64,000 nt of DNA from Sipunculus nudus (Eukaryota; Annelida; Sipuncula; Golfingiida; Sipunculidae): assembly GCA_026874595.1 (NCBI GenBank), contig CM049316.1, positions 10,530,839 to 10,594,838 on the forward strand, given 5' to 3'. The notes under the pieces were generated by a model. The model worked only from the letters and a program-made list of their open reading frames with translations. It was not told where the DNA came from and did no database searches. The position numbers and the translations under genes are program-made. Below are positions 51,280 to 63,887 of this stretch, in pieces. The stretch's first letter is position 1. Each line of letters opens with the position of its first letter.

Positions 51280-54200
51280 ATGGATCATGATATGGAAGAG
51301 TGTTACAACGCCACCCTGGAGGTGGCCAAAGAGGCCGGTGTGGTGAGTAAAACATTGTGCACAATACCAGTCTGGGACACGATGCTGGTGTAAAACACAC
51401 TTTAATGTCCCTGCAAAACAGAGAACTCTAGTAGGGCCTGCCTGTTTTCAGCAACCTGTGCAGGAGGATATCCTTTCACAAAACAAAAAATAAATACATA
51501 TAAACACAGAGATGAACAAACTGCAGGCCTATGGCCAAATGCAGCCAGCCATATGTGTTTTCATAGCTGGCAAAGATGTATACACAGAGATGTAATTCTG
51601 TTATACTCCATTAAATAAAGGCACAGACTGAGACTAGAGTATAATTCTATGGCCATGTTGTACAAAGAAATTGACAACAGTGATGGACAGCAAGTTTTCT
51701 ATCAGACAAACACGGAAAATATGAATAAGTTATTAAAGATTTGCCCATTTCAGATTAGATTCTTTCTTACACCCTGTAGGTTCTTGTCTATTTTGACAAA
51801 TGGCTGTAATTTTTTTGCAGATGATCAGAGAAGCGTTCAGTCAGGAGAAGAGAATAGAGACAAAATGCAGCGTGGCAGATTTAGTAACAGAAACAGACAA
51901 GGCAGTGGAGGATCTTATTATAAACACACTTAAAAAGAAGTTCCCATCTCACAGGTAAGTTTTGTGAAAAGCTGATGGTAAGCATGGGGGATTACATTTA
52001 TTCTTAATACAGATTAGAACTGGGTGATAAGCCTAAAACTAAATATAACCGTTAATGAATCAGTATGCATGATATCAGAACGATACAGGCAGTTCAACCC
52101 GCTATGATGTATGCTGTCTGTCTTGCTGCCATGTAATACAGGTTATACAAGCCCTGCAGCTTCCTGTGCTAACCAACTGGCCCCAGGGTGAAATGAAACG
52201 TTTCCTCAAGTTCCAGCCCAAAACTGCATCACTGTAACATTATCAATACATTACAAGGAAGACCTGCCTAAGGACCATGACACCAAGTATTGTCCCCTAC
52301 ATATTGTGTATGCATTATTATAAAACATTATTGTGTGTCAATGATGTTAAGGTAAATATCTGAGTGTCTGTATAAGTGGTTGGTAGCATGTATGATCATT
52401 TAATTAAAATATTGAGCCTCGTGGATTGTGTCTTCATGCACGTAGACCTATGGGCAGCCATTGCTGTCTGCGGTCCTAGGGGCTTACCTCAATTTAGGCC
52501 TGTATGAAGACATCATTAATGAAAGCAGTTATTAAAATATAAATATCGTTTGAATCAGATGATATAATATTTATATATTGTTATGCTATTTCAGTATTGG
52601 GCCAGGGAACATTCATATGATCCTTTGATGCAGGTTTAAAATACATCAAGATTCTGTTTGTACATTCATATCAATAACATGAAACATTCCCATTCTCAGA
52701 TATTATCATTGGGCAAACCTCCCTGAATCCATGCACTTTAGCAGTCATAATTGACTATACTGATCCATCCCTTCAGTTCCATTCGTGCAAGTCTGACTGT
52801 ATTCATCTTTAATTACAGAAACAAACTTGAATACCTATGGAGTACAGTGAAATTCTAGTGAGAGAACTACATGTACCACAGTACAAGCGCAAGCATTCTG
52901 ATATTCCTCATACAGTGAAACATTTTAAAGTACCATTATTTGTATGTCACCCAACTTGTATATTATAAACCTGTCTTCCTGATATAATATGGAATTATTT
53001 TTTGTTTTGTTTTCAGGGAGTAATTAAACATTTCTCAAAACTCAAATATTAACACAGGAAGTAAAAATGGAAAAAATAAACAGATGTTTATTAAAGTAAT
53101 TGTATTCCAAAAACGCTAAAATTATTCTGGTATTCTTTTGTATGTAGTTTTATAGGAGAAGAATCTGTAGCCGCCGGCCAAAAATGTGTCTTGACTGACA
53201 ACCCCACCTGGATTATAGATCCCATCGACGGAACGTCCAACTTTGTTCACAGGTAGTGGAAGCTTATCATTAATTGATCATTAAGTGATGAGGTTACAAT
53301 ATTAATTTCTGTTAGATGAGGGATAGCTTTATTCTTTGGAGCTGAGGAGGCAGGGATTAAATCAAGTTGAAGTAACCATGCTTATGAGACAGATCTGCTT
53401 TTCAAAATAAGTTGATACTTTGACCTTGAATCTATGACAAAGTTTTGGATACTTAGTAATTTAGAAAAATAGGAAAATTTTTTCAAAGAAAAAAATATTT
53501 TATATATCAGGACAACTGCTTTAATTGCTTGATTTTCAAAATATTATGTGATGTTGCAGTTCCCAGAGAAGGGATATTTATGATATCACATCTAGATTCA
53601 GTATATAAACTTTTGCATAGTGGTGAGCAATTACCTGCAAACCAAAACATGTACTGCTTCACCAGAAAAGTTTAAAAGATCAGATACCTTTATATAAATA
53701 TAAAGTAATTTAACAGAATCCTTGAATGACATAGTTCGCTTTTAGTCATCTGTTGTAATGACATACAATTTATTTTCATTTATGTTTGTATTTTTGATAG
53801 ATTTCAATATTTATATATGTATTTTTGACAGATTCCCATATAATTTTATGTATTTTGACAGAGTTTTATAATTATTTATGTATTTTGACAGATCTGTATA
53901 TTTATTTATGTAATTTGACAGATTTGTAAATTTATTTATGTATTTTTACAGATTTCCATATGTTGCTGTATCAATAGCATTGGTTGTCAACAAGAAGGTC
54001 AGTGATTATTTCAAAATTTAATCAACATGTGACTATTTTGAAATAAATAACTACTCAACAATGCAAAAACTTAAGGTTTTATAATTTGAAGGAGATTCCA
54101 GCACCTGTTAATTAATTATTCAGCTAATCATACCAGATTTTATCACACGTGTGATGACTTTTTGCATTTTGGCCATTTAGTTTGTCTTAATGTCACATTG

Positions 54201-57200
54201 AAAACTCTTCTATTCAGGTAATCAAATATTATCACTGCCCTTGCCTGTAAATATTCAGTCACAAAAAGATTTGCTTAACCTGGTCACTTTTCCATTGAAA
54301 CTTAGTTATTCTCAAATAGATAATCTAAATTCCTCACCTAAATGTATAATCAGTATTGAAAGAGTGGTCATTTAGCTTATAAAACCTAGGTTTTCTTTTC
54401 TATTTTAGATTCTAAAGCTATTTTAATGAGAGTTTTAGACTTATTTTATAAATACTTGTGGGCTGTAACTGATTCAGAAATCAGTTTTATGGAACATAAG
54501 AATCTGTGTTTATATAAATATGCTAATGGATAATATTTTGCGACATAATTTCAGACAGAGATTGGGTTGGTTTATAACCCCATCCTAGAACAAATGTTCA
54601 CAGCAAGGCCAGGCCATGGAGCCTTTTGTAATGGTGAAAGGTTAAAGGTCACGGGTAACAAAGGTCAGTCTCAAGATAAGTTTGGTTCACCTTGGCATGT
54701 CTAATATCTGTAAGCTTAAGTTACTGCAAGATAACTTTATACTTTAAAAAAATAAAAGCATTTATGTAGGTTTGTACTAATGTTATCTTGAATAGTCTGT
54801 GAACATTATGAATTTTCATAATAAATACTCCTAATGATGACATATTAAGCATTTGGATTTGCTTTCAGTATTGACATAGCCATTTCAACATGTCATGTTT
54901 TCTATTTTGTGTAATTTAATGCTATAGTTTGTAAATAAACAGATAAAAGTAATAAAAACAACATGTTAACTAAACTATCATTGTAACCATGATGCTGAAG
55001 ACATAAAATAATAATTTAAATGCAGGCTTAAATTTTCTTGATAAGACAGATATGACATATCTCTCAATGCCAGCAAATTAGTTTGTTGCTTTTTTAGGTT
55101 TATTTTTGGTGCTCCTAGGAATCTTTTATATGTATTACTTTTTACCAAAGATCTCAGTAAATCACTCATCTTGACTGAGTTTGGGTCCCAGAGAGTACCT
55201 GCTGTATTAGATTCAAGATTACGAACGATGAGGAAAATCATCGACCAGGCTCATGGGTAAGTGGTTTTCTGTATGCTTTTTCAGTTTTGTGCTATTCAAA
55301 AAATCTCCTTTTCACTTTTATATTGTCTTATAAAAGAAAAAGAAAAAAGTTACATAACTGTAAAATAAATATGTTATTCTAATTTCAAAATATGAAAATC
55401 ATAAATTTTGGCCACAGTATACAGAATAAAATTCAGTTATAAAAAAATAAATTCCATGTGTTTATATTGTCAATTTTTTCTGTTCTATTTTTTTTTTTTT
55501 ACTTTATATGAAGTAATTTGATAAACTAAAGGCAGATTTAGTTAATCAATATAAAGTATGTCAGTTTTAAAGGGAGCATTGAATGGACATAGACTTAAAC
55601 AAAAGGCATAAACTTTGACAAAAGGTGTTTATTTGCATTCATATATGTTTAAAATAAAATACAATAAATTTGTAAATGCATACATTGATTTGAATGCTTT
55701 ATCAAATCTATAAATTTAATAGAAGTGATTTTTGTGGCATGCTGTGGTTAGTAATAAGCTTTGTATTCTTCAATGTTGTTAACCAGAATCATTATTTGAT
55801 TTATGTGGATACCATTCTTTATATATATACGTGATAAAATGCTTTGTACCTGACTGTGAAGCCAAAGTGATAGGTACTCTGGTAAGATCTCCCAACTTTT
55901 AACTGCACCAAAGAACTGTGTTTGCTTGTTAACAGCTGGTAACAGGCTTCATGCACTACAGTAATGTTTTAACCTCAGGATAGAAAAAGAAAGGCACAAA
56001 CCTGTGCGCATGACTACAGCTTTCACCTTAATGATGTTACCTGGGTTTCAGTTACCTGGTACATCAAAATAACATACAAATTGATTATAATGCATACAGC
56101 ATCTCTCAGCACCTTTATCTTAGGCCAGCCTCCATCCATACATGGTAAAAAGGACTACATGCTGCTCTTAGGTTGAATCTGAGTTTGATAGCTCTCATTT
56201 GTGGTTATAATAACCTTTTGCAGTCTGTATGGGAGAAACAGGTTAACAAAATGACAGTATAATCTTGCAGGTTTTAGCACTGATTGTTTTATGCAAGGCT
56301 AGATAGTCTACGATTACATGAGATCCTTTATAAATGACTGCAGTATCACAAAACATTTAAGTATAGACATGTGCCCGGGCTTAATCTCAGCTTCTCCAGT
56401 GAAATATAGTCAAGAATGAAGTTACAGCATTTGTGAAGCTGGAATGATACAATATGAAAAAGACAATTTTCACTGTAAGAGTTTAGGTATATTACTTATT
56501 GCCCAATGTTGTGTTATTGCCAACAGGCTGTGGGAACTATTTAACCTGGACGGTAGGTATATTTATAGTACTGGGATCTCGGATTGTCGCCTGACAATTT
56601 TGTGTATTAACATGCAGTTTTGATGTAGATTAAATCCATTGTATTTAAGAGGATTTATCTTATAAGACATTTCAGGTGAGGAATATGCCCTCATGGTTAT
56701 GTCATTTATCTCTCATTTGTAGGCTCTGGGCTGAATAGTATTCACCACATTTTATAAATAGGCAACAATTTTAAACTTTCAGTTATACAACATTGGGCAT
56801 TGCTACAGTATATGATATACACATTTAACTGTTTGTTTGGCTTTATATTTTATTTTATAAAGAATTAAATGCAAACATGTAATTGTTTACAAGAATTTTC
56901 ATTATTATTATTACCAAAATTATGTCTTTTATGTGAATATTGTAAATATTGCTTGGTAACCAATACACTGGAATCTTATTAATTAAATGGAAGCTTTAGG
57001 GAGGAAATTATAGATATATAGGTTTGATTGGATGAGGTAAAATGATAGAATCCCTGAAGAAACACAATATGCAAGATAAGTATAAAGTACAGAAATGAAT
57101 TTTCAGTTTATAGAATACAGAGCAACCCAGTTTTATCAGAGGAATCTTGTTGCCTTGTAATTGCAGAATTCGTGATTTGGGTGCAGGTTCCCTCCACTGT

Positions 57201-60200
57201 TGTCAGGTAGCTTCAGGTTTAGCAGATGGTTATTACCACCAGCCGACCAATGCCTGGGACATCGCAGCAGGTGTCCTAATAGTAACAGAAGCAGGTGGTG
57301 TTGCCAGGTGCACATCAGGTACATCCCACTCTCCGAGCATATGATACTCTCCCATCCAAACTTATAGATTGGTACCCTGCTTTATTAATGTGGCTAAGTT
57401 CAGTGTATAACAAAGATAGGCTGACACCTAGATTTTCATTAATAGTGGGAGCATTAATGGAGCAGGGTACCAATCTAAAAACATAGGCCTGTACAACTCC
57501 TCAGATAAGCATGAATCTCATGTCAGATATGAAGTTATGCCCACTCTCCAAGCCTAAATCCTGTAAACTTTCAGCAAAAGTTTACCAACTTTGACAACTT
57601 TTTGCACATATGGCAATGTCCACTATCAAAGCATAAAGCTATGGGCATGTTTGGCAAGTTGCTTGGTTGGTTGTGAACAGAAGCTGGTTGCTGGATTGCA
57701 CTCAAATGCTAGTTGGTAAAAACAAAATGGCTTCTCTGAGATGAATATGCATATCTCTCAAGCTGAATATGCATTTTTCAGGACCATTGTAATTTGTGGT
57801 TGATTCATTTGTGCTTAGCTGATTCAGCTTGCTAAGGCTTAGGGATATCCTTCGTCCATTCAGTATGTCAGTCTTCATGCACATGTATATGAGTTATGGA
57901 GTTGACAGATTTTGCATGGCAGGTATGTAGACTAATAACTCTTACATTTAGTTAACAATTGTATGTTTAGCTCTGTTGAATTAATATGCACATAAAGCTC
58001 TGCCATGTTTGACTATAGTCTGCCTGCCTAGCCAGTGAATTGTTAGCAGGGCATGTATTTGTGTCTTTTAGGGCTATAAGCTTCTAGCTTGATATCATGA
58101 CAAGTTATGGTGAAATCTTAGAAATAAAAAATAGGTTAAAATGTTTTACATTCTACTGGATGTAGTTAAAAAGTGATAATGAGCACCATTAAAACCTTGT
58201 GACAGTGTTTGAGGAATCTTAACATACACCTGGCACAGGTCAATAACAGGAAAATAAGTAACCCAATTTTTTTAGCAACCCGGTGAGCTAATGCGATGGT
58301 GCAGCGTCGTCCGTCGTGCGTTGTCTGAACTTAAACCATAGCTATTTAAAAAAGGCAAGAGCTAGGATCACCAAATTTTTTGCAAATAATCAATCATCTG
58401 AAAAACTCTATCGGATTTTGTTTATTTTTTCCTAACTGCATTTTCTTAGATTTTATAGGGAAAAAAGCTAAAAAAGCTTTAAAGTCTTCTTCTCTGAAAC
58501 TGTCCAGCCAAATTGTCCAGTATTTCACAGAAATGATCCCTGGAACAATCTCTCTCAAATTTGTTCAAATGGTTCCAGTTTGGGGATTTTTGGCCAAGTT
58601 ACAGAAGGTTGAACTTAGTTATCTGTCCAAAAAAGCACACTAAAATTAAAATACCAGAAACGGCTAGAGCTATAATGACCAAATTTTATACCAATATTTT
58701 TCACATATATCATATCTGAAATTGAGGTATTAGTGGTGCCACCTACATTGATTTGTTTTTTACAAGCAAAAATGTAATTTTTAAACTCTTCTAGCTTATA
58801 CACTGATTTATGATGAAACTCTTTAGCTGATTGGTTTAAACTTTACAAGAATTATTCTTTGGTAGGGTTCTGCCAATTTTATAAGAATAGATTGGGTAAA
58901 TACGGCTTTAAAAAAGCATTGTAGCCAATTGAAAAAGGCTTTCTGTGTTTGAAAACAGATTTGACAACATGCTGAGTTTCAGCAGCCAAGTCAAGCGGTC
59001 ACTCAGTACAACCAGGTGGGGTCCAGACATCACCATGGCAACTGACCTAGCTCTGGCGGGTGTCTAGACTATGTGTCACAATGTGACACAATGTCTAGAC
59101 GCAGAATTCCCAGATTATTGGAACTATATCTTTTACCTGTTTGAAAAAAATTGGTTTGCGTTTTTAGCGAATCTGTGAGCATATGCAATTGTGTGGGGTC
59201 GTCCGTCCTGCGTCATAGCTATCTCAAAAAGGGCAGGGGCTAGCATCACCAATTTTTTTGCAAAAGATTTGTCATCAGTCATCATTTGTTTATTTTTTTT
59301 TCTAACTGCATTTTCATAGATTTTTGCACAGCGTCCATCTGTTCATCTGCCTTGGGATAAAAACACTCATATATCTGCATTGGTTGGACTTATTGACCTG
59401 AAATTTTGCAGGTTTATACATCCTTGGCAGCTTTCTTGATTTTAGGCAGGTGACGCCACCTACTTTCAAATTTATGCTGCAGACATCCAAGCTCATATGT
59501 CTGGAACCATTTGACCGATTGGGCAAACATTTTGCATGTTTATAGATCTCACATAGCTCTTCATCATATGCAAAACTGGTGGCGCCACCTGCAATCATTT
59601 TTGCACAGTATCCATCTGTTTGTTTGCCGTTGGATAAAATCACTCATACCTCGGCAGTGGTTTGACATATCTGCCTAAAATTTTGCATGTTTATACATCT
59701 TGGATAGCTTTCTTGCTTTTGTGGCAGGTTGGCGCCACCTACATTTATGTATATGCTGCAAACATTCAGGCTTATATTTCAGGACTGGTTTGACATATCC
59801 CCCTGAAATTTTGTGTGTGTATAGATCTCACATAGCTCTTAATCATAGACAAAAGTGGTGGCGCCACTTGCCACCTTTTTTGCACAGCATCCGTCTGTTT
59901 CTCTGCCGTGGGCTAAAATCACTCATATCTCAGTAGTGGTTTGACTTGGTCTGCCTAAAATTTTGCATGTTTATACATCTTGGACAGCTTTCTGGATTCT
60001 TTGGTAGGTGGTGCAACCTACATACACATTTCGGCTGAAGACATCCAGGCTATTATGCAACACACCTCACTCTATTTCCCCTTGCCACTCAATCCATGCC
60101 TTACTTCACCCGTCCCACTCTGATTTTGGCCGATTCAAGTAGTCGCTTGTTGACTACCCAAATTCTAGTTTTTGTGTTGTGTGCACCCATGCAAGAATTT

Positions 60201-63200
60201 CAGAAATGATGTTTGTTTAATTGTTTCGTGTTCTAAGTGTTTAGTACTTGCATTGTTCATATACATGTTACACATGTTCTTGAAAAGTTATGGTCCAGCA
60301 TTGAAGCATTATACCTGGTGTAATCTCATTGCACAGGTTCGCATTAGGCCTGTAGGCCTTGTTTATCAAAACTTAAAAATACCATATATGCAATGGGTTC
60401 TGGGGTGTGCAGTGTAGTTTGTGGCTTTCTTTGCTCTCAGGTTTTGCACACTTGTGACATAAATGAAAGTCATAGGACACTAGATCAAGAAAAGTGTAGT
60501 GTCTAAAAAATAAAAAGACGGTCTGAGTGCATTCAGGGAGTGTAACATCAGTACCAATGGACCAAATCCTGTATACTGTCAAAGTAGCTGGGATACAATA
60601 TGTGTCAAACTTGTTTGGTAAAAAAAGATATAATTTTTAGCAATTATCAATATGACACAGGGTTCAGACCTTCCTGTCTATGTATTTGACAGGATTCGGG
60701 GCCTTGGGTCGGCCGCTCTCAATATGTGTCTGGTAGCGGCGGGGAACATAGATGCGTTTTTCCATCAAGGCTTACACTGCTGGGATATTGCCGCTGCTGA
60801 GGTGGTAGTCAGGGAAGCTCAGGGCGTTGCCATGGATGTGACAGGTTGGTCACATGATCCACAAGTTCTGTCCATAGGAGCACTAACCTTTATTAAACCC
60901 TAGGTTTAGCATGGCATGTCACATAATGTGCTTAAGAGTAGGCCTGGCACAAGTTTTTATAGTTAACTGTGGTTTTGGTTTGATTTTCAACAACAAGTTT
61001 ATCATTGTCCTGTGTAAGATAAGTTAATTACACTTTATCCCTGAAAAAGGAAAAAAAAAAACAACGCGAGGTGTTGTTGCCATGATACAGTGCCACCAAG
61101 TAGTCTATACTTAATGTACAATGTGCTGCCCTCTGAAGGCAGTTGGTGGAACTACACCAGTATTTAAGCTGAATGCAACTTAAACCCCTATGGATAACCT
61201 TAACAAGCCTATGGTGAAAGCACTGTAATGCGGAGCATTTGACAGCCTAATTCAAATCCTGCCAGAGGCTTACAGCAAACTGGTGAAATCTAGATATATC
61301 CTTAAAAATCATTCAAATTTTTAACATTACTTATACAACAGACAGTGCCACCAACAGGCCATTGACCTTTCATTTAAAAAACACTTTACCCAGGTTTTAC
61401 TGATATAGCTTGTACTCTTCTTTGGGTCCAAAATATCTTTTTCCATAGTTTCAGAATACTGTAGTAGATGTGGGAACATAATTAAGCAGAACCTGTGGGT
61501 ATAAATAAAAGTTTGGTCAGGAATATAAGTGTTACAATGCACCATATGCAGTAACACACGGTGAAATGTCTTGTTCAGCTTAATACTCGACACATGGGAT
61601 TACGGTCAGTGGTGATGGAATCTTGTAATCGTAGCTAAGAGCAAGCTGTGTATGTGTGTGCTTGTATATGTTGGTATCGGTCAGACTTCAGCAGTGGTGG
61701 TTCTACAGTGCTTTGTCACTAACAATCAGCATTACAGTTCTTTTACTAAGGTGTAATGACACACAGCACATCAAAATGGCACTGGTTTTTACAATAGTGA
61801 GTACAATACAAATATCAAATTGAAGATTATAAACAAATTTAAAAAAAAGTACACAGCGAATTTATAGAAAACTTCTGTCAGATTTAGTAAAATTCATATA
61901 AAACAAAATCAGGGAAAGAATGATAATACATTTCAGTAATATCCAGTGCTGTTTTCTGTGTAATACTCTTGCTCCCCATCCTTTATCTCAGTGGTACGGA
62001 CACTTCCTCCCTTGAACAGTTAAATCCCCATGGTTTCCTATCCTTTGGCTTCATAATCAGTGATAGCGTTAAACATGACATAATCTGGTGAATGAATGAT
62101 GGCCATACCTTATTGTAACAGGATAAGGTGTACAGGCTCTGCAGCTATGTCTATGGTGCTGGTTGCCGCTGGTAACGCTGATGCTTTTTACGAGTTTGGC
62201 ATCCATTGCTGGGATATTGCTGCGGGGGATCTGATCGTTAGAGAAGCAGGGGGAACCGTTATAAACCCTACAGGTAATGTACTGTCAATGCTCAAAAACG
62301 TCACCACGTTTCCAGATTCTGACGGGGCTTCAGCTGTCTTTGATCTTTATCCACCTTTTAGAGTTCTTTTGTTATATTGTACTTAAAATGACCTTTATTT
62401 TATATGTCCTTGAACTGTCCTTGATCTTCAGAGTCTCCTTCAATTGTTAATATTTCATGGTCCTTATGAACTCATGATAATTTGATCTCACTCACTTTGT
62501 TTTAACAAATATTAACAATGGATTTGATGCGGATTTTCACATGAATGATTTTTACAGAATATATATTTTACATGTCTGAGTCCATTTGTCTCAGTCTGGA
62601 TGTAAGAGGTTTGAGTAAATAAATGCATGTTGTTGTCACAGATTACATAAAACATTACCTTTATCTTGTGTTCAGTAAGAACTCAAATTGTAAAGCATCA
62701 TTGAAGGATTTTAGCTCTTCTTTAAAGCCATACAAAAAGTACAAACTGCAAACTGATCAAAGGAGGCAATGTTAAGTTCTCTTTGTTCAGTCCTTTGTAA
62801 AGGTGACACAGTTACCGTGGTTTCTCCTGTGTGTCATCTGATTGTTTGGTCCACGTTCGATGTTTCACATTTCAATGCTCTTTGTGTCTAGGACAGCGTT
62901 AAATGTTGGTCGTGACTGTGCTCGTGGAAGTTGAGGCATCCCATCCCAAACAACTCAGAATTGTGTCATTGTAGCAGATATGATTCTGATCACATGAGTT
63001 TTGTTATTGCCTTATATAAATACTGTACTATGGTATATCAAAAACCTGTCCAGTCTGAACCACCTGATGTTTTTATCATCAAACAGAACACTGATCAGTA
63101 GTCTTTCATGCTACATATACATCTTGCTATATCATCCTTTTTAACTGAAACATACAAAGTTTAATACTCTTTTCCTACATGTTCATTTTATATTAAACTA

Positions 63201-63887
63201 AAAGTTGAATTTCCATTTCATCCTTTATTCCTTTCCTCACATGGGAGTTTGCCTTCAGTAATATTTTATCTATTTCTTTTTCTTGTGTACATTTGTCTGT
63301 CTGAACGTACTTGTATATTAGCATAAATATTTTGTAGGAAATGAACACCTAATTCTTTATTTCATCTTCAGCATATCAGTTTAAATGAGATGTATACTCT
63401 TTCTACCAATGAACATGGTTTCCTCTATTTGAATTCTTTAGTAGAAATATGCTGTCACATTTGATGATGAGTGAAATGAAAAATAATGAGGATTAAAGTG
63501 CAATGTTCACCTTTTGATATTCTAGAAAATAAGTAAATACAGGTTAAAACTTAAGATATATGTATTTTTTGTTTCAATGATTACCTTCCAACTTCTTGAA
63601 TATCAGTAATTTAGTTATTAGTGATTCCTGGAGTTTCAGAACTGTATAATGCATGTTGTTTTGTCACATTTGGTCATTAAAGAGGATTTAGACAAAAATA
63701 AATGATGTAATGTCTTGATTCACACCAATGACAACAGATTTCTCACTGTGTTATTAGTACTGATTTTGTTATTGTTGTAGGTGGCCCTCTTGATCTTATG
63801 GCACGGCGGGTGTTGTGTGCGTCATCTCAGGAACTTGCAGACCAAATAGTGAAGCAGGTAGAAGCTATAGAGTTTGAGCGAGATTAA
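51280..63887 (+). CDS. IMPA1: Inositol monophosphatase (IMPA1/IMPA2-type) with a triplicated exon
   Basis: Coding exons: 51280-51342, 51821-51954, 53148-53252, 53952-53997, 54555-54663, 55151-55256, one of three alternative exons (57167-57318, 60693-60844, 62122-62273), and 63781-63887. Each choice gives 273 aa (human IMPA1: 277). The enzyme hydrolyses inositol monophosphates to free inositol with Mg2+ in the cytosol, feeding phosphoinositide signalling; it is the lithium-sensitive family. Visible sites: GEE (Glu70), [14 protein letters not shown] (metal ligands Asp90 and Asp93), and the second metal motif WDIAA (Asp219, human Asp220) in the alternative exon. The end is [12 protein letters not shown] plus a short tail. 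The ATG lies 50 nt inside an exon whose acceptor is at 51229, so transcription starts upstream. The acceptor before 55151 is a weak AAAG. All other junctions are GT-AG and keep frame. The symbol refers to the family; IMPA1 versus IMPA2 orthology is not resolved. Confidence 0.95.
53788..53951 (+). repeat. Tandem array of 3' splice-site units before IMPase exon 53952-53997
   Basis: Six consecutive units of 30-31 bp each begin GTATTTTGACAG or a close variant (at 53788, 53819, 53850, 53880, 53910, 53940). Their AG dinucleotides are at 53800, 53831, 53861, 53891, 53921 and 53951. The last AG is the acceptor that keeps the IMPase frame. The sequence after earlier AGs (for example GATTCCCATAT) resembles the start of the true exon (GATTTCCATAT), so the repeat unit spans the intron-exon boundary. 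Confidence 0.85.
57167..57318 (+). CDS. IMPase alternative exon, copy a
   Basis: 152 nt with acceptor TTGCAG and donor CAG|GTACAT; it enters in phase 2 and leaves in phase 1. It encodes [14 protein letters not shown], then [15 protein letters not shown]. The metal-binding Asp (WD) is present. The residue seven before that Asp, Glu213 in human IMPA1, is His here, and the loop reads [10 protein letters not shown] with Pro in place of the usual Gly and Asn in place of His217. It is the most diverged of the three copies, but open and spliced in frame. Confidence 0.88.
58278..58460 (+). repeat. Dispersed GTGAGCTAATGCGATGG repeat, copy 1
   Basis: Begins near CCGGTGAGCTAATGCGATGG, then CGTCGTCCGTCGTGCGT, TAGCTATTTAAAAAAGGCA, GATCACCAAATTTTTTGC and CTAACTGCATTTTC. 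A second, diverged copy is at 59160-59335. From memory, repeats with this GTGAGC/GTCCGTCGT head are common in molluscan genomes. Confidence 0.6.
59062..59100. repeat. 39-bp near-perfect palindrome
   Basis: GTCTAGAC, TA, TGTGTCACA, A, TGTGACACA, AT, GTCTAGAC: two 19-bp arms that pair except at two central positions, with a 1-nt loop. It lies in the intron between alternative exons a and b. Confidence 0.85.
59160..59335 (+). repeat. Dispersed repeat, copy 2
   Basis: Shares TCGTCCGTC-TGCGT, ATAGCTAT, GCTAG-ATCACCAA, TTTTTTGCAAA and CTAACTGCATTTTC blocks with 58278-58460. Confidence 0.6.
59321..60050. repeat. About 278-bp tandem repeat, 2.6 copies
   Basis: TTTTTGCACAG followed by ATC/GTC-ATCTGTT recurs at about 59321, 59598 and 59877. 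Each unit contains two related half-units of about 130-150 bp, both with a GGCGCCACCT-type block and AATTTTGCATGTTTATA. It lies in the intron between alternative exons a and b of the IMPase gene. Confidence 0.85.
60693..60844 (+). CDS. IMPase alternative exon, copy b
   Basis: 152 nt with acceptor TTTGACAG and donor ACAG|GTTGGT, the same phases as copy a. It encodes [18 protein letters not shown], then [20 protein letters not shown]. The metal Asp is kept; the Glu213-equivalent is His. [10 protein letters not shown] is closer to the IMPA2 style of this motif (as I recall it, AAATVIIREA), and the usual EAGG reads EAQG. Its donor deviates from the consensus (GTTGGT). Intron read-through would reach a stop at about 60903. 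Confidence 0.88.
60845..62121. other. Intron between alternative exons b and c
   Basis: No further exon copy and no coding sequence are recognised. An A-run lies near 61049-61060. Confidence 0.5.
62122..62273 (+). CDS. IMPase alternative exon, copy c (most canonical)
   Basis: 152 nt with acceptor TTGTAACAG and donor ACAG|GTAATG, the same phases as copies a and b. It encodes [18 protein letters not shown], then [20 protein letters not shown]. It keeps Glu at the position of human Glu213 (here 212), the GIHCWD block and EAGG, so it is the copy expected to give a classical inositol monophosphatase. Confidence 0.9.
62274..63780. other. Last IMPase intron
   Basis: AT-rich. I saw no fourth copy of the alternative exon and no other feature. 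The ORF reading through from exon c to 62386 would give an unrelated tail. Confidence 0.5.

Follow-up and report, generated by a model that had tools for sequence, protein, structure and literature searches.

What does an inositol monophosphatase (IMPA) gene do with three versions of a single exon? The question is raised by a window of 64,000 nucleotides (the whole stretch of DNA analysed) from Sipunculus nudus (contig CM049316.1; G000:C11:10530839-10594838; host genome of 1.43 Gb). In this window, an IMPA gene lies on the + strand at 51280-63887 and comprises exons 1-6, three versions of exon 7 (named a, b and c) and exon 8. IMPA is one of the targets of lithium and governs the supply of inositol. 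We consider it likely that this is a single IMPA gene with three mutually exclusive exon-7 copies, the isoforms of which would probably differ in substrate preference. Residues are given in human numbering throughout, and both this mapping and the tblastn searches used a human IMPA1 sequence. The exons are as follows.

51280..51342, + strand: exon 1, coding part from the ATG (in-frame ATG, GT donor, alignment with the IMPA N-terminus)
51821..51954, + strand: exon 2 (AG/GT; tblastn E 8.9e-8 against human IMPA1)
53148..53252, + strand: exon 3, with the GEES and DPIDGT metal/phosphate motifs (AG/GT; tblastn E 5e-17)
53952..53997, + strand: exon 4 (AG/GT; frame links exons 3 and 5)
54555..54663, + strand: exon 5 (AG/GT; tblastn E 2.8e-7)
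55151..55256, + strand: exon 6, the common upstream partner, ending in phase 2 (AG/GT; tblastn E 0.003; frame)
57167..57318, + strand: exon 7a, the most divergent copy, with His213, Asn217 and Ala-Gly at 195-196 (AG/GT, open frame; profile E 5.2e-17)
60693..60844, + strand: exon 7b, with His213, His217 and Asp220 (AG/GT, open frame; profile E 9.4e-26)
62122..62273, + strand: exon 7c, with the canonical Glu213, His217 and Asp220 (AG/GT, open frame; profile E 2e-28)
63781..63887, + strand: exon 8, the common downstream partner, coding part to the TAA (AG acceptor, phase 1, aligned C-terminus)

The sequence-only reading had placed here three exons of 152 nt, entered in phase 2 and left in phase 1, with AG/GT sites and no in-frame stop; these coordinates and features proved exact for all three copies. 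Each copy supplies 1 nt that finishes the exon-6 codon, 50 whole codons and 1 nt toward the exon-8 codon. As had been proposed, each fits between the exon ending at 55256 and the exon starting at 63781, and exons 1-6 with any single copy and exon 8 give a 273-aa IMPA protein. The isoforms a, b and c match PF00459 over residues 4-267 with scores of 283.5, 286.9 and 298.3 bits, respectively (cut-off 27), and the best solved relatives of isoform c are IMPA2 and IMPA1 (~331 to 322 bits). The metal ligands of the human enzyme are Glu70, Asp90, Asp93 and Asp220 (PMC4954947). The corresponding motifs are present, GEES and DPIDGT in the common exon 3 and Trp-Asp at 219-220 in all three copies of exon 7. 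The difference between isoforms, first put at about 51 residues around a metal site and the substrate pocket, amounts to 50 residues that include Asp220 and the inositol-packing loop.

Would the copies be used one at a time? When transcripts were spliced in silico, a, b or c alone left the frame open to the final TAA. All other combinations (a+b, a+c, b+c, a+b+c and no copy) gave premature stops because 152 nt is not a multiple of 3, so that two, three or no copies put the transcript out of frame. Therefore, only one-copy transcripts yield a full-length enzyme. Frame, together with the decay of faulty transcripts, would enforce exclusivity whatever selects the copy. Among the possible selecting mechanisms, U12-type incompatibility is not favoured, as the exon-7 donors (GTACAT, GTTGGT and GTAATG) do not match the U12 consensus. 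By the coordinates, the introns around the copies measure 1910, 3374, 1277 and 1507 nt. Nor does anything point to steric hindrance, since the introns separating a from b (3374 nt) and b from c (1277 nt) exceed the usual length limit for it.

Long introns (1277-3374 nt) would suit an alternative in which one copy acts as the terminal exon, the reading frame running on to a stop with polyadenylation nearby, so that truncated proteins result. However, every copy is followed by a GT donor in one and the same phase, and the isoforms of relatives run into the common C-terminus, which makes this alternative very improbable. It could also be proposed that every copy forms part of its own tandem gene or transcript, complete with further exons. 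Duplication of IMPA genes does occur in animals: tilapia has at least four IMPase loci in its genome (PMC4466255), and two IMPA halves lie in tandem in an Acipenser model that is unverified (P0003). Upstream exons proper to each copy had been named from the start as the finding that would overturn a choice between copies; no additional copy of exons 1-6 or 8 was detected in 55.2-64 kb or in the next 8 kb. Separate tandem genes are contradicted by the sequence, and we rejected this explanation as scarcely credible. The one-of-three choice is supported by the frame, by the common flanking exons and by the isoform sets of decapods and amphioxus described below, and mutually exclusive splicing of exon 7 is highly probable in S. 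nudus. One copy alone would be joined between exons 6 and 8. The three resulting enzymes would have a common scaffold, with most of the metal ligands and Asp220, and would vary over 50 residues, including the inositol-ring loop and residue 213. Isoform c would be the ordinary inositol monophosphatase.

Are the three copies real and maintained by selection? A profile built from the exon-7 segments of relatives (50 columns) was searched in six frames against the window and 8 kb downstream. Only the three copies were significant, the next match having E = 1, and no fourth copy was found in this region. Copies a and b share 23/50 amino acids (54% of nucleotides), a and c 22/50 (51%), and b and c 30/50 (61%), and outside the copies similarity drops toward background. 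Only 16-18 of the 50 third codon positions are identical between copies, against 30-39 of 50 at each of positions 1 and 2. When positions 1 and 2 are pooled and compared with position 3, the contrast is significant for a and b (63/100 vs. 18/50; one-sided Fisher P = 0.0015), for a and c (60/100 vs. 16/50; P = 0.0010) and for b and c (73/100 vs. 18/50; P = 1.4e-5). Because third positions are far more diverged than positions 1 and 2, the copies appear to have been under long coding constraint. They are old, as judged from these codon-position contrasts, and the constraint is clearest for b and c.

Exon duplicates frequently decay, and an open frame is in itself poor evidence of function, as 12-33% of neutral copies kept theirs in simulations. 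Both points would suit a gene in which the canonical copy c is used alone, a and b being unused relics of tandem duplication. This is improbable given the excess of divergence at third positions, the strong profile match of copy b (E = 9.4e-26) and the annotation of equivalent non-Glu copies as isoforms in decapods and amphioxus.

Some results weigh against three functional, mutually exclusive copies. In a constraint test made on each copy, limited to sites at which the two remaining copies are the same, P was 0.009 for b and 0.006 for c, and only 0.054 for a. Copy a also has the longest end branch (0.99) and is missing the usual Ala196 and His217. Its own search returned only 2 matches among 133 candidates, both bacterial-looking, while that of copy b returned 7 matches among 34 candidates. 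Moreover, four ungapped tests for docking/selector RNA pairing gave nothing convincing, with 1, 14, 31 and 59 of 60 shuffles reaching the observed score. Copy a therefore appears to be the weakest of the three and is not secured by its own constraint test. A two-way switch, with b and c as functional alternatives and a decaying or rarely used, would account for the long branch of a, its non-canonical residues at 195-196 and 217, its lack of a clear animal relative and its constraint test. We regard this two-way switch as rather unlikely, since copy a keeps an intact frame and AG/GT sites, retains Arg191, Gly194, Trp219, Asp220 and Glu230, and shows a significant codon-position contrast when paired with b and with c. 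Three exclusive copies remain our preferred reading.

Does the same arrangement exist in other animals? We considered the best 120 of the 6434 matches of a full-length search, clustered at 90% identity, so that further isoforms may be hidden. In the database isoform models of Homarus americanus (X1-X3) and Panulirus ornatus (X1-X3), the proteins are identical outside residues 190-239, i.e. the exon-7 span. Likewise, the X1 and X2 models of Branchiostoma lanceolatum are identical outside residues 200-249, which again is the exon-7 span (P0064, P0070, P0080, P0077, P0089, P0106, P0037 and P0061 for the three species). These annotated isoforms swap the same 50 residues as in S. nudus and include one Glu213 form beside non-Glu forms, although their exon 7 is only 20-32/49 identical to the S. 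nudus copies. A search of other lophotrochozoans for the layout had been suggested, and tandem copies were indeed found in annelids. Two consecutive exon-7 segments occur in the gene models of Paralvinella palmiformis (P0010) and Lamellibrachia satsuma (P0011), as well as in that of the springtail Allacma fusca (P0016). As in S. nudus, there are two or more tandem copies, here two, with the non-Glu copy first and the Glu copy last; unlike in our reading of S. nudus, both copies are annotated within one protein. The copies are bridged by odd linker residues in Paralvinella and Allacma, and the start of the second copy is cut off in Lamellibrachia, as would be expected if copies cannot join in frame. 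These fused models are probably annotation errors, as is probably true of any invertebrate IMPA model in which two copies are fused.

Other entries may inform on expression. Ridgeia (P0014) has a Glu version of exon 7, and P0015 (source labelled lgn) is a Thr-type open reading frame (ORF) of 279 aa on a contig of 1239 nt. P0015 and P0014 differ at 20/50 exon-7 residues and at 10/229 residues elsewhere. P0065 is a Ser-type ORF of 274 aa on a contig of 1120 nt. Given the size of their contigs, P0015 and P0065 are probably cDNA, and non-Glu copies would therefore be spliced and expressed in some animals. Two further models show repeated IMPA segments. In the Pinctada imbricata model (P0022), the exon-3 to exon-4 stretch occurs twice (GEESVSGG...LSIDKK), which is either a model error or a second kind of IMPA exon duplication. 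In the Acipenser sinensis model (P0003, unverified by its source), the first tandem half carries His213 and the second Glu213.

What would the exchange of exon 7 change in the enzyme? Exon 7 corresponds to human residues 190-239. Inositol packs on loops that include the G[ST]AA loop, and the specificity-determining contacts are Glu213 and Asp93, while Asp220 is among the metal ligands (PMC2080633), more precisely a ligand of Mg-II (PMC4954947). In a galactose-1-phosphate-selective IMPase, position 213 hydrogen-bonds the sugar, and the modelled hydrogen bonds of Glu213 differ between galactose-1-phosphate and glucose-1-phosphate (PMC12324327, preprint). An Asp close to this loop in HisN is important for histidinol phosphate (PMC5516325); by our own mapping on the R-x-x-G-D motif, this Asp would correspond to human position 195, within exon 7. 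In view of this literature on residue 213 and on the HisN Asp, the swapped exon is the segment where the fold sets substrate choice, with Asp220 kept.

The Glu213 contact is present in copy c, and is replaced by His in a and b and by Gln in vertebrate IMPA2. We compared residue 213 in 134 full-length segments, which include three bacterial-looking ones and the three S. nudus copies (one 51-residue segment was dropped): 89 have Glu, 29 Gln, 8 His, 5 Thr, 2 Ser and 1 Gly. Glu213 is not required for membership of the IMPA family, judging by the Gln of vertebrate IMPA2. Arg191, Gly194, Trp219, Asp220 and Glu230 are invariant in the 88 Glu rows and the 45 others (the truncated Lamellibrachia row being excluded). 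All seven multi-copy sets have exactly one visible Glu213 copy each, the other copies having His, Thr, Ser or Gln, with Asp220 retained:

Sipunculus nudus: His, His, Glu
Homarus: Glu, Thr, His
Panulirus: Glu, Ser, His
Branchiostoma: Glu, Gln
Paralvinella: Thr, Glu
Lamellibrachia: Thr, Glu
Allacma: His, Glu

The Glu copy comes last in all four sets with a visible order (S. nudus, Paralvinella, Lamellibrachia and Allacma), which has a probability of 1 in 24 by chance. The a, b and c isoforms would probably have different substrate preferences, and perhaps different responses to lithium or Mg. Judged as a separate point, a retuning of substrate choice stands at about even chances. Should the isoforms differ in the way that residue 213 suggests, nature would offer a set of active-site variants of a single scaffold, shaped by long evolution under selection. 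With such a set one could examine what determines substrate choice and the response to lithium in this family, and ask on which substrate the His, Thr and Gln forms act.

How old is the cluster? In exon-7 trees, each Homarus copy (His, Glu or Thr/Ser) pairs, at starred support, with the Panulirus copy of its own type, and the cluster therefore predates the split between these two decapods. With position 213 included, decapod and annelid Thr/Ser copies form a group (95/88, 7 rows), a hint of a deeper common origin; without that position the grouping vanishes. The 38-row tree excluded the long row of copy a (win_a) and some other rows. None of the topologies tested was rejected: decapod and annelid Thr/Ser copies together (P = 0.403), decapod Thr, His and Glu copies together (P = 0.553), annelid Thr and Glu copies together (P = 0.613), decapod Thr and Glu copies together (P = 0.526), and copies b and c of the window together (P = 0.586). 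Fifty columns are too few to settle between one origin and several. A derivation of the vertebrate IMPA2 exon from the amphioxus Gln exon was not supported, as the vertebrate IMPA1 and IMPA2 exons group together (82/80). A broader scenario, which we put forward tentatively and hold to be less probable than not, is that exon 7 is an old bilaterian specificity cassette with a Glu213 copy last and His, Thr or Gln copies beside it, inherited, or repeatedly evolved anew, in annelids, crustaceans, springtails and amphioxus. The copy spliced in would set the phosphomonoester handled (inositol vs. other sugar phosphates), and perhaps lithium sensitivity, as vertebrates do with the IMPA1 and IMPA2 genes.

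Is there another IMPA gene in this genome? At least 21 PF00459 matches were identified: 5 in the IMPA gene, 4 in other animal-type genes and 12 on smaller bacterial-looking contigs. The other animal-type genes (L011, L013, L012) are nearest to BPNT1 (C3), nearest to INPP1 with two exons (C13), and BPNT1-like (C4). They belong to the same family but have other substrates and loci, their nearest solved relatives being BPNT1 and INPP1. No second animal IMPA was found among these matches, and splicing may therefore supply the variety that vertebrates obtain from IMPA1 and IMPA2. Like the exon-7 copies, these two differ at residue 213 (Glu in IMPA1 rows, Gln in IMPA2 rows); unlike them, they are separate genes.

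Mutually exclusive exon clusters are known from Dscam and myosin heavy chain genes. In PKM, too, tandem exons that are homologous and match in length and phase are used one at a time, and genome-wide such exons tend to preserve the fold and to alter residues near functional sites (PMC7954323). As in these known clusters, a single homologous stretch, close to a functional site, distinguishes the IMPA isoforms. Unlike them, the IMPA exon encodes part of a small metabolic phosphatase, including one of its catalytic metal ligands and a residue for substrate specificity, and, in contrast to clusters governed by RNA structure, no such mechanism was detected in our ungapped pairing scan. The sequence-only reading knew of no mutually exclusive exons described for the IMPA family. 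This holds for the literature, as no report appeared among the matches listed (catalogue supplements lay outside the search), but not for public annotation, which already contains the pattern in its isoform models. IMPA would join a known kind of exon cluster, with an unusually pointed functional hint.

Some repeats were also observed within the gene. Six 30-bp tandem units (53778-53961) extend into the exon 4 acceptor; an acceptor-like TATTTTGACAG is present in most of them, and the final one forms the actual 3' splice site of exon 4. A similar TATGTATTTGACAG is present in the exon 7b acceptor. A 279-bp tandem repeat, in ~2.6 copies (59320-60051), lies within the a-b intron.

Finally, the bacterial-looking contigs showed features of their own. 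Ten near-identical IMPase-family matches, each with one internal TGA, lie on C61, C62, C66, C74, C83 and C89 (L002-L008) and also on C72, C77 and C90, adjoining an apparent glycerophosphodiester phosphodiesterase gene (labels given by eye). Their appearance is that of a single bacterial genome present many times over, its genes broken; it may be a symbiont or a contaminant. G000:C96 (L014) is a bacterial-looking contig of 61 kb with bacterial-style neighbours, and G000:C128 (L001), also bacterial-looking, carries an intact suhB-like gene.

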